Positions 38,325-42,947 of a stretch of DNA of 46,026 nt are shown here, in pieces. The position numbers were made by a program, and so were the translations under genes. The DNA lies in assembly GCA_002792115.1 (NCBI GenBank), contig PFNQ01000049.1, positions 1 through 46,026 on the forward strand, read 5' to 3'. Source of the stretch: Candidatus Woesearchaeota archaeon CG_4_10_14_0_2_um_filter_33_13 (GTDB lineage: Archaea > Nanobdellota > Nanobdellia > Woesearchaeales > GW2011-AR9). The notes beneath the pieces were generated by a model. The model made no database searches, had not been told where the DNA came from, and was given only the letters and a program-made list of their open reading frames with translations. How positions within the stretch are numbered: position 1 is the first letter of the stretch; the number at the start of each line of letters is the position of its first letter.

Positions 38325-40508
38325 ATGAAAAAAACTGACATTAAAATTTCAGGGATGCATTGTGCTAGTTGTAGTGCAATCATAACTAAAGCTTTAAACA
38401 AGGAGGGAGGAGTTAAATCAGCATATGTTAATTTTTCAACCGAGAAAGCTACAATCGAATTTGATTCAAAGCAAACTAATGAAAACAAGTTGATTGCTGC
38501 CATAAAAAATAAAGGTTACGATGGACATGTTATAACTGAAGGAGACACTAAAACTGAGTTTAAAGAACAAAAGAGAGACCTAATCAGATTAAGAAATAAA
38601 GTTATCTTAAGTTCTATTTTTGCGTCCCCTGCCCTAGTTATTAGCATGTTTTTTATGGACGGTTCTTTTCCATTTCAAGATTATTTGTTATGGTTTTTAG
38701 CTACACCAGTTCAATTTTATATTGGAAAACAATTTTATCAAGGGGCCTGGGCAGCATTAAAAAACAAGACCAGTAATATGGACACGTTGATTGCTGTTGG
38801 AACTAGTGCAGCTTACTTTTATTCCGTGTATGTTGTACTTTTTAACCCACAAGGACATCAGTACTTTGAGGCTGCTGCAGTTTTGATAACATTAGTAGTA
38901 TTAGGGAAATATTTAGAAGCAATAGCTAAAGGAAGAACCAGTGAAGCCATTAGTAAATTAATGAAATTTGGTGCTAAAACTGCTACTATAATTAGAAACG
39001 GAAAAGAAATAAAACTCTCTATTGATGATGTAAAACAGGGAGATTTAATTTTAGTTAAACCAGGAGAAAAAATTCCTGTTGATGGCATTATCAAGGAAGG
39101 ACATTCTGCAATTGATGAAAGTATGGTCACGGGAGAAAGTTTACCGGTTGAGAAGAAAAAAGGCGACAATGTTATTGGTTCTACAATCAATAAACAAGGA
39201 AGCTTCAGATTTCAAGCAACTAAGGTTGGTTCAGAAACAACTCTCTCTAGAATTATAAAATTAATTGAAGAAGCTCAAACTAAGAAAGCACCAATTCAAC
39301 GTTTTGCTGATGCCATTTCAGCTTATTTTGTACCGATTGTAATTTTTATTGCCTTACTTGCCTTTACTACTTGGTTTGCAATCTTTAATTCTGCGTTTAG
39401 TTTTGCTTTAGTTGCTGCCGTAGCTGTTTTGGTTATTGCTTGCCCTTGTGCTTTAGGCTTAGCTACTCCCACTGCAATAATGGTAGGAACCGGTAAAGGA
39501 GCTAAAGAAGGAATCTTAATTAAAGGAGGAGATGCTTTAGAAACAGCTCACAAACTTAAATTTGTTGTCTTTGATAAAACTGGTACGATTACTAAAGGTC
39601 AACCAGAGGTCACAGATATTGTAACGTCTACTGGAATTAGTGAAACTAAATTATTAGAGGTTGCAGGAAGTATTGAAAATGATTCTGAACATCCCCTTGC
39701 TGAAGCTATTGTTAACAAAGCCAAAGAGAGAAAAGTTAAGTTTAGTAAAATCAACTCTTTCAAATCAATTACAGGAAGAGGAGTAAAAGCAAAAATAGGA
39801 AAAAAGGAATATTATTTAGGAAACTTAAGATTGATGAATGAACTAAAAATAAAGATTGGATCATTACAAAAAGAGATGGACCGATTAGAAAGTGAAGGAA
39901 AAACCGCCATGTTTTTAGTGGAAGGCAAAAAGATTTTAGGGATTATAGCGGTTGCAGATGAAATAAAAGTAGATTCGCCAAAAGCTATTGCCCAGTTGCA
40001 AAAACTGGGATTACAAGTATATATGATTACCGGAGACAATAAAAGAACTGCGCAAGCTATTGCCCATAAAGTTGGAATACAAAACTACTTTGCTGAAGTT
40101 CTTCCTGAAGACAAATCTAGTTATGTGAAAAAATTACAAAGAAAAGGTAAAGTAGCGATGGTGGGAGACGGCATTAACGATGCGCCAGCATTAGCACAAG
40201 CAGATATTGGTATTGCTATGGGTTCAGGAACCGATGTTGCTATGGAAACTGGGAATGTTGTTTTGATGAGAAATAACTTAACCGATATCCCCAAAGCAAT
40301 TAAATTAAGCAGAATGACTATGAGTAAAATTAGACAAAACATGTTTTGGGCTTTGTTTTACAATGTTTTAGGTATACCGGTTGCCGCAGGAGTGTTATAT
40401 CCAATAACAGGATGGTTACTTAACCCAATGATTGCCGGTGGTGCGATGGCCTTAAGTTCAGTTAGTGTAATAACTAACTCTTTGTTGTTAAAATACAAGA
40501 AATTGTAA
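38325..40508 (+). CDS. copA: Copper-transporting P1B-type ATPase
   Basis: A 727-residue heavy-metal ATPase. The N-terminal HMA domain has GMHCASC (C13, C16). The membrane metal site CPC is at 373-375 in [14 protein letters not shown]. The phosphorylation site DKTGT begins at D417. SEHPLAEAI and [20 protein letters not shown] complete the ATP-binding domains, and TGES lies in the actuator domain. CPC with a single HMA fits Cu(I)/Ag(I) export. It closes the plus-strand copper/thiol run; its last 35 nt overlap the convergent bcp gene. Confidence 0.95.
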
Positions 40509-41010
40509 ACTTCTTACTTCTTGTTTTCTTTACTTTTTTATTTCCATTTGTAAGAGTAGAAATATAATCCAAAACTTCTTTTGCATGTCCAGAAGGGTTT
40601 ACTCTGAAATACACTTTAATTATTTTCTGGTTTTTGTCCAAGATAAACGTACTTCGTTCAATTCCGGTATATTTCTTTCCCATGAAAGATTTTTCACCAT
40701 AAACCCCATATATTTTAGCTACAGAAAAATCCATGTCTGAAAGCAGCAATAACTTCAATTTGTGTTTATCACAAAACTTTGTCTTACTTTTCTCATTTCC
40801 TCCAGAAATCCCCATGATTGTAACATCTAAGTTTTTAAAATCACTTAAATATTTATTAAATAGTAATGCCTCAATTGTACATCCGGGAGTATTGTCCTTT
40901 GGATAAAAATACAAGACAACATATTTAGATTTTATTTTCTTTAGTTCCCATTCTTTAGCATCCTTATCTTTTAAAACAAAATTTGGTGCGTTTTTCTTTT
41001 CCTTTAACAT
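40474..41010 (-). CDS. bcp: Peroxiredoxin, Bcp/PrxQ type
   Basis: A 178-residue thiol peroxidase that reduces hydroperoxides. The peroxidatic Cys is C44 in [13 protein letters not shown]. The usual PrxQ resolving Cys five residues on is absent (CTIEALLFN), so another thiol must resolve it; further Cys occur near C79 and in the tail. The basic C-terminal extension ([21 protein letters not shown]) is encoded in the 35-nt overlap with copA. The ATG at 41010 is preferred to a TTG at 41025, since GGAGAG lies between them. It is last in the oxidative-stress operon. Confidence 0.9.
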
Positions 41011-41042: not shown

Positions 41043-41645
41043 TTAGTTAATTGCATTAAGATAATGTCTATTAACAGTGCTCCAATTGATAACCTTAAAA
41101 AAGTTTTCAACATATTCTGGTCTTTTGTTTTGATACTTTAAGTAATATGCATGCTCCCACACGTCTATACAAAGCAACGGGATTTTACCAATACTCAATG
41201 GACAATCTTGGTTGCTGGTCTGAATTAGTTTTAATTCTTTATTCTCGTTTAAAACTAACCATCCCCAACCAGAACCAAAAAGTGTTAATGCTGATTTACT
41301 AAAATCTTCTTTAAATTTATCAAAAGAACCCCACTTTTTTGTTATTGCTTCTGCAATTTCTCCTTCAAAAATAACATCCTTCTTAAGAATATCCCAAAAA
41401 AAAGTATGATGATAATATCCTCCACCATTATTAACTATTGGGGTTAAAATTCCTTCCGGAACTGATTTTAGTTCTGTTAATATGTCCTTAACATCCCTCT
41501 TCTCTAATGGAGTACCTGTAATCGCAGTAATAAACTTATCAAAATATGCTTTGTGATGTTTATTATGATGAATCATCATAGTTTCTTTATCAATAAATGG
41601 TTCTAACGCATCATATGCGTAAGGTAGCGGTTTAAATTCATTCAT
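41043..41645 (-). CDS. sod: Superoxide dismutase, Fe/Mn family (Mn-type residues)
   Basis: A 200-residue enzyme converting superoxide to oxygen and hydrogen peroxide. Metal ligands are expected at H26 (MMIHHNKHH), H80 (GGGYYHHTFFW), and the Asp and His of CIDVWEHAYYL. The segment SNQDCPL carries the Gln-Asp pair usual in Mn enzymes, so manganese is more likely than iron. There is no signal peptide, so it is cytoplasmic. It is co-directional with ahpC (36 nt) and bcp (32 nt). A CGGAGGAAAA stretch before the ATG is a good ribosome binding site. Confidence 0.95.
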   Translation of the reverse strand: MNEFKPLPYAYDALEPFIDKETMMIHHNKHHKAYFDKFITAITGTPLEKRDVKDILTELKSVPEGILTPIVNNGGGYYHHTFFWDILKKDVIFEGEIAEAITKKWGSFDKFKEDFSKSALTLFGSGWGWLVLNENKELKLIQTSNQDCPLSIGKIPLLCIDVWEHAYYLKYQNKRPEYVENFFKVINWSTVNRHYLNAIN

Positions 41646-41681: not shown

Positions 41682-42257
41682 CTAAATCTTACCAACAATA
41701 TCCAAACTAGGTTTTAATGTTCCTTTGCCTGGTTCCCAATTAGCTGGACAGACCTCTCCACCATGCTTTCTAACAAATTGTGCTGCTTTGATCTTTCTTA
41801 ATAATTCTGTAGTGTTCCTCCCAATACTATTGTCATGCAATTCGTACGCTTTCAAAACCCCATCTGGATCAATAATAAATGTTCCTCTCAAACTTAATCC
41901 TTCAGAATGGATATATGTCCCATATGCACGAGAAACATTTCCAGTAGGATCTGCCAACATTGGAAATTTAATCTTTTTTATCGTTTCAGAATTATCGTGC
42001 CAAGCTTTATGAACAAAAACTGTATCTGTACTAACACTAATGATTTCTGTATCTAATTTCTGAAATTCTTCATAACTATCTGCTAAACTTCCCAATTCTG
42101 TTGGACAAACAAAAGTAAAATCTGCAGGATAAAAAAATAATACCACCCATTTACCTTTGTATTCTGTTAAACTAATTTTTTTTATCTCATTATTGTGATA
42201 AACTTCAGCAACAAACTCTGGTGCTGGATTATTAATTTCTAATTTTATTTCATTCAT
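41682..42257 (-). CDS. ahpC: 2-Cys peroxiredoxin (AhpC/TSA family)
   Basis: A 191-residue typical 2-Cys peroxiredoxin. The peroxidatic Cys is C51 in YPADFTFVCPTELG, and the resolving Cys is C170 in HGGEVCPANWEPGK. These reduce hydrogen peroxide and organic peroxides using an external thiol or flavin reductase; no ahpF or thioredoxin reductase is in the window. The adjacent ferredoxin may be part of the electron supply, an inference from position. It starts 17 nt after the ferredoxin stop on the minus strand. Confidence 0.95.
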   Translation of the reverse strand: MNEIKLEINNPAPEFVAEVYHNNEIKKISLTEYKGKWVVLFFYPADFTFVCPTELGSLADSYEEFQKLDTEIISVSTDTVFVHKAWHDNSETIKKIKFPMLADPTGNVSRAYGTYIHSEGLSLRGTFIIDPDGVLKAYELHDNSIGRNTTELLRKIKAAQFVRKHGGEVCPANWEPGKGTLKPSLDIVGKI

Positions 42258-42274: not shown

Positions 42275-42529
42275 TTAAAATTTTATTTTTACAGTGCCTT
42301 TTAATATTTTACACATACATGCTAACCTAAATGGTGGTTTCACTCCCATCATCTCTTCTTCTTCAGTAATATAAGATAAATTCTCCGCCCCTTCCTCGAT
42401 TTCAATCTCACACACTCCGCAAGCCCCCCCTTTGCATCCAAATGGAACACCTAATTGGTTACACGCCGTAATAATTTTATCACCATCCTCAACCTTTACT
42501 ATTTTTCCTTCATTTTCAATCACTGCCAT
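42275..42529 (-). CDS. Plant-type 2Fe-2S ferredoxin
   Basis: An 84-residue electron carrier with GCKGGACGVCEI (C32, C37, C40) and CMC (C71, C73), the ligand spacing of 2Fe-2S ferredoxins. An extra Cys is at C23. The ATG at 42529 is preferred over one at 42565, because AAGGAGAG lies a few bases before it and the upstream ATG is inside the end of the Fur-family gene. It follows that gene's natural stop by 10 nt, placing the regulator and the carrier in one transcript. Confidence 0.88.
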   Translation of the reverse strand: MAVIENEGKIVKVEDGDKIITACNQLGVPFGCKGGACGVCEIEIEEGAENLSYITEEEEMMGVKPPFRLACMCKILKGTVKIKF

Positions 42530-42539
42530 ACTTCTCTCC

Positions 42540-42913
42540 TTAAACACAATGTTCACACAACCCATTAAATATAATATCTACAGAATCTATTTTTGCATTT
42601 GGTAAATATGTTTTTTTAATAATTTTATTATTTAATTGAGGATACTGCAAATCGATTATTTTTCTGCAATTCTTACAAATAAAATGTTGGTGGTTCTTTA
42701 TATCCCCATCATAGCGAAATTCTTTATTTACTTCTAATCTTAAAATTTGTTTTTTTTTGATAATAAGTTTAAATTTCGATAAACCGTAGCTAAACTAATC
42801 TCAGGAATCTCTTTCTTTACTAAAAGATACACTTCCTCAGCAGTAGGATGGGTATGTAATCCTTTTATACATTCAAAGATTACTTTCTTTTGCCCAGTTT
42901 CCCGTTCTTTCAT
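42540..42913 (-). pseudogene. Fur/PerR-family regulator gene, frameshifted at a run of nine A
   Basis: From the ATG at 42913 the frame reads MKERETGQKKVIFEC, then HPTAEEVYLLVKKEIPEIS and LATVYRNLNLLSKK, a Fur winged helix, but stops after 57 residues (42740-42742). Past the A9 run (42750-42758, T on the plus strand) the next frame continues QILRLEVNKEFRYDG, HQHFICKNCRKIIDL and ends GLCEHCV at 42540, the Fur dimer domain with its two structural CxxC zinc pairs. One added A would give a normal 124-residue protein. It heads a peroxide/superoxide operon, so it is PerR-like by context. It may be a true mutation, slippage-decoded, or a sequence error. Confidence 0.85.
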
Positions 42914-42935
42914 TATTAATAATGATTATTAATAA
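42913..42935. promoter_or_regulatory. Perfect 23-bp palindrome, probable Fur/PerR operator
   Basis: Arms TTATTAATAAT (42913-42923) and ATTATTAATAA (42925-42935) are exact reverse complements around one G. AT-rich palindromes of this form resemble bacterial PerR/Fur boxes. It reaches the first base of the Fur-family ATG and covers the expected transcription start, so binding would shut off the regulator's own operon. No second copy was seen in the window. Confidence 0.75.
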
Positions 42936-42938
42936 GAG

Positions 42939-42947
42939 TTTATAAAT
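42939..42947 (-). promoter_or_regulatory. TATA box of the Fur-ferredoxin-ahpC-sod-bcp operon
   Basis: ATTTATAAA on the minus strand is centred 30 nt before the ATG at 42913, directly upstream of the palindrome; the transcript would have almost no leader. Confidence 0.6.

Follow-up and report, generated by a model that had tools for sequence, protein, structure and literature searches.

The question raised by this locus is whether the break in the frame of a conserved repressor gene destroys the repressor, is bypassed by slippage or frameshifting, or reflects an ordinary change in the length of a homopolymer. The gene, a member of the Fur/PerR family (fur/perR), lies on the minus strand at positions 42540-42913 of the window (the whole 46,026-nt stretch of DNA from a Woesearchaeota archaeon that was analysed), and its two halves are in different frames that join at a run of A residues (A9, 42750-42758, minus strand). 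The N-terminal frame (42740-42913, minus strand) starts with an ATG at 42913 and encodes a winged-helix, DNA-binding half of 57 aa (MKERETGQKK...ATVYRNLNLLSKKNKF), which ends in NLNLLSKKNKF at a TAA stop codon (42742-42740) and matches positions 5-56 of the Pfam FUR profile (PF01475, 121 positions; E 1.7e-13). The C-terminal half (42540-42758, minus strand; stop-to-stop frame 42794-42540), which contains the dimerisation and metal-binding portion, is in the -1 frame and reads ...KKKQILRLEVNKEFRYDGDIKNHQHFICKNCRKIIDL...GLCEHCV before its stop codon at 42542-42540; it matches FUR positions 55-118 (E 1.7e-6) and also positions 51-126 of profile A1 (E 1.6e-23). The two FUR half-matches meet end to end, as is seen in a member of the Fur superfamily that has been cut in two, and the chance that two such abutting, complementary matches arose by accident is negligible. 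At the break, the codons of the N-terminal frame are TCA AAA AAA AAC AAA TTT TAA, and when the sequence is read across the A9 run, the hinge has the length found in orthologues (LSKKKQILRL vs LAEEGEILRL). Since the run is exactly nine A residues long and the half-matches abut in two frames, the original prediction that the frame is lost by a single base at this tract is correct.

The protein specified by the two frames together resembles PerR. Besides an HQH motif and two CxxC motifs, the C-terminal half carries an Asp at the position of PerR Asp104, and all of the listed PerR residues (His37, Asp85, His91, His93, Asp104, and four Cys; PMC4866751) are present when both frames are combined. The closest solved relative of the orthologue profile is Bacillus subtilis PerR (2fe3; E 1.1e-28), with which, as with the orthologues, the THPTAEE, RYD, HQH, and IID segments of the regulatory site align position by position; the two CxxC motifs of the structural zinc site are CKNC and CEHC. 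Because this set of residues has Asp rather than Glu at position 104, the protein is PerR-like rather than an iron-type Fur. Thus, the motifs that had been quoted for it (HQHFICKNC and CEHC) are right and both halves are indeed well conserved, but the label "normal Fur" needs to be changed. The best scores of the halves (42-45 bits each) fall below the 200-bit cut-off of the NCBIfam PerR equivalog, and the protein is therefore called PerR-like and placed outside the named bacterial equivalogs. By alignment, it shares the regulatory ligands and the Cys4 zinc site with B. subtilis PerR (PDB 2fe3, 2rgv, 3f8n), which likewise has peroxide defence genes under its control. It differs from B. subtilis PerR in being archaeal, in its linkage to a ferredoxin-AhpC-SOD operon, in the position of its operator, which touches the start codon and follows a TATA box, and in being split into two frames. 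A match to a phage record, MT837799.1 (L113), was set aside as not relevant; although labelled 'Bacteriophage sp.', this clostridial-looking contig has an intact Fur-rubrerythrin pair and, with its ClpB-like and manganese-catalase-like genes, resembles a bacterial chromosome.

Downstream of fur/perR, the first gene of the operon, lie four genes on the same strand: a 2Fe-2S ferredoxin gene with its own GGAGAG ribosome site (gene 2, 42275-42526; PF00111, E 5.4e-12), an AhpC-type peroxiredoxin gene (41682-42257; TIGR03137, 274.4 bits, above the cut-off), an Fe/Mn superoxide dismutase (SOD) gene (41043-41645; PF02777, PF00081), and a Bcp/PrxQ-type peroxiredoxin gene (40474-41010; NF006960, above the cut-off). 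All four are whole, as the original prediction of an intact operon had held, and the synteny of Fur and AhpC, often with ferredoxin or SOD, recurs among relatives. A perfect 23-bp palindrome of the 7-1-7 Fur/PerR-box type, TTATTAATAATNATTATTAATAA, is present at 42913-42935 (0 mismatches, with 0.03 such sites expected in the window), and its final base is the first base of the fur/perR start codon. This is the sole site in the genome with two or fewer mismatches to the operator. A close match to its 19-bp core is found upstream of most of the 30 nearest orthologues, usually with 0-3 mismatches compared to about 6 in shuffled sequence. A TATA-box-like sequence, TTTATAAA (42939-42946, minus strand), lies 33 nt before the ATG, a distance which implies a leaderless or nearly leaderless transcript and which agrees with the roughly 31 nt of relatives G001-G003, which look leaderless. 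The TATA-to-operator spacing is 13 nt here, roughly one turn of the helix less than in most relatives, where the TATA box starts 21-24 nt before the core. The layout of operator and TATA box supports, but does not prove, a predicted autoregulation within a regulon of a single operon.

If so, the intact PerR-like protein would dimerise with Fe or Mn bound at its His/Asp site and would occupy the palindrome at its own start, blocking the operon until oxidation of the repressor by peroxide lifts the block. If the A9 run is real, the product would be a 57-aa protein that is missing the half for dimerisation and metal sensing; derepression of the operon would then be probable unless slippage yields some full-length protein. 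The operator and the operon agree with the earlier proposal that loss of the repressor leaves this operon derepressed, although the derepression itself is something that we infer.

Comparison with relatives indicates that the break is peculiar to this copy. Orthologues were sought in 353 genomes of the order at two tiers (E < 1e-40 and E < 1e-28), and the relatives compared belong to the same family and order, all outside the genus; they include Woesearchaeota MAG CG10_big_fil_rev_8_21_14_0_10_32_24 (locus L037), whose Fur-locus coordinates are those of the family member G001 (L008). All 36 matches at E < 1e-40 and all 46 at E < 1e-28 have a single open frame, and the only split copy in this order-wide search is that of the window. 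An A9 run is absent from the orthologous hinge in 30 of 30 relatives, two of which have an in-frame A7-A8. Thus, the comparison with relatives for which the original prediction had called finds the break, and an A9 run at this site, in none of them. No near-identical viral contig was found for comparison at the level of strains. The gene is also free of decay. At 25 columns that are at least 95% invariant, the copy in the window differs once (Leu to Ile), while intact orthologues differ at 0-2, and the C-terminal half has no further stops or frame breaks. Given this lack of additional lesions in fur/perR, pseudogene decay was rejected, and the event must be recent, or an error, or functionally tolerated; a conserved recoding was rejected as well, since the orthologues are all single-frame.

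Other long A runs in the same genome (G000) provide a measure of how often such tracts interrupt genes. There are 68 runs of A9 or longer in total, and about 29 of these are sense-strand runs within ORFs that span 100 codons or more without interruption. Most coding A9 runs are correct, so A9 is not a length at which this assembly generally fails. However, the breaks that were identified by homology in this genome are all at A runs of at least nine. Another A9 break with good support, shifted in the same direction as that of fur/perR, interrupts the gene for ribosomal protein uL10 (G000:C36:29729-29738; L194:902-910, L226). Here the sequence reads CCA AAA AAA AAC TAA, the body of the protein ends in QSEPKKN, and the C-terminal tail, ...GDVSINQAQELWEKLQKEGTLREKK, sits in the -1 frame; this tail has in-frame counterparts in relatives (matches with E as low as 2e-11) and is in frame in 8 of the 8 relatives that have it. 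The uL10 tails (L220, L225, L229, L230, L233-L236) consist of a variable charged linker followed by a conserved AxELxxKLQKEGTLR motif, and a tail of this type is missing from other uL10 proteins of the same archaeal family. A PEP-synthase-like ORF also seems to be split, at an A10 run (G000:C20:23679-23688; L184:900) and in the opposite direction to fur/perR and uL10. Its second part has no start codon nearby, but because its N-terminal half finds no relatives, it is only a probable third break. At least nine places in this genome, mostly on contig C23, match this family. In addition, a C9 run (G000:C5:4772-4780; L127) ends a conserved small secreted or membrane protein while another frame runs on for about 80 codons; this break was not counted as proven, its C-terminal half having no homologue in the family.

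Taken together, A9 runs that are mostly correct, with breaks at the longest A runs, fit length noise, which may lie in the consensus or in recent slips in the population, and the likewise broken, unrelated uL10 gene indicates a general noise in the length of A tracts. Because related archaea keep the gene intact, the break in fur/perR is most likely a one-base change in length and not an evolved control. Thus, the locus is probably an ordinary autoregulatory gene for a PerR-type repressor in which an A tract of Lys codons has changed in length by one base, an event that is not programmed. We infer that the change arose either as a consensus (sequencing or assembly) error at A9 or through a genuine slip that occurred recently in the population sampled. 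An indel had been named from the start as the simplest alternative, and the intact, single-frame orthologues, together with the second A9 break in uL10, bear this out. However, the perfectly kept operator and the preserved C-terminal half would also be expected if slippage still makes the product.

The latter possibility is that of a real A9 run in a "pseudo-pseudogene", in which stuttering of RNA polymerase restores the frame in some mRNAs and so provides some full-length repressor. Slippage is evident at runs of 9A in many bacterial genomes, where disrupted genes are rescued in this way (PMC1088944; PMC5009743), and the tract at the break, a sense-strand run of at least nine A residues, reaches the length of these known sites. 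Like the bacterial pseudo-pseudogenes (Baranov et al. 2005, PMC1088944), fur/perR is an ORF broken at 9A with its halves preserved and its relatives intact; unlike them, it would be transcribed by an archaeal polymerase, and the run length of its DNA is that of the consensus. Pairs of AAA codons are under-used in the sampled coding sequence of this genome (405 seen versus 527 expected), with the strongest deficit where the preceding codon ends in A (A_AAA_AAA, 104 seen), as would be expected if long A runs carry a cost. By analogy with bacteria, slippage at A9 may partly rescue the gene, and the undecayed C-terminal half and operator agree with it. On the other hand, about 29 intact genes tolerate runs of A9 or longer, an error or an event in the very recent past would leave the gene just as free of decay, and a literature search gave no data on slippage by RNA polymerases of DPANN archaea, so that rescue by the polymerase is considered unlikely. 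It is very unlikely that the repressor has genuinely been lost and the loss fixed, perhaps by selection in a niche that favours constant AhpC and SOD expression. Such a loss would touch only one operon, since the sole matching operator in the genome is that of fur/perR itself, and the downstream genes of the operon are intact. A second Fur paralogue (contig C32) has neither the PerR ligand set nor this operator and is therefore unlikely to substitute, so that compensation by this paralogue was set aside. Yet neither the C-terminal half nor the operator has a second lesion, so any loss would have to be very recent.

Programmed -1 ribosomal frameshifting at A_AAA_AAC, which would yield the DNA-binding half and the full-length repressor in a regulated ratio, can draw on a heptamer that is in phase, on the correct direction of the shift, and on archaeal precedents at A-AAA-AAT in a fucosidase gene (fucA1; PMC8211752) and at A_AAA_AAC in the archaeal virus HCTV-2 (PMC5009743). 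Like fur/perR, fucA1 of Saccharolobus solfataricus is an archaeal gene split by a -1 shift at an A-rich heptamer while close relatives are full length. However, fucA1 is backed by a stem-loop, by rare codons, and by protein evidence, whereas the putative site in fur/perR has no stimulatory RNA structure downstream (z -0.17), and the structure at uL10 is marginal (z -1.95). The in-phase heptamer is weak evidence because every A9 run holds an in-phase A_AAA_AAA, A_AAA_AAC is hardly avoided in the coding sequence (34 seen versus 42.5 expected), and the shift site is conserved in no orthologue. Both breaks do read YCA AAA AAA AAC and both need -1, a pattern found in 0 of the approximately 29 uninterrupted runs, although the motif is weak and this comparison of two cases was made post hoc. 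Consequently, programmed frameshifting at fur/perR is extremely improbable, and it is highly improbable that this lineage makes a defined share of its PerR-like repressor and uL10, in short and long forms, through -1 slippage at YCA AAA AAA AAC. The earlier suggestion of a functional mixture of short and full-length protein is thus not borne out, given single-frame orthologues without A9 and the lack of a downstream structure.

As an ordinary homopolymer event, which is the reading preferred here, the frame break cautions that a single consensus sequence is no ground for declaring a repressor lost. The firmer result is a conserved PerR-like protein, predicted from the arrangement of its gene to be an autoregulated repressor of an AhpC-SOD operon in Woesearchaeales, with a 7-1-7 operator beside the TATA box. 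If the A9 runs in both fur/perR and uL10 are real, they would open slippage decoding in DPANN archaea to direct tests.
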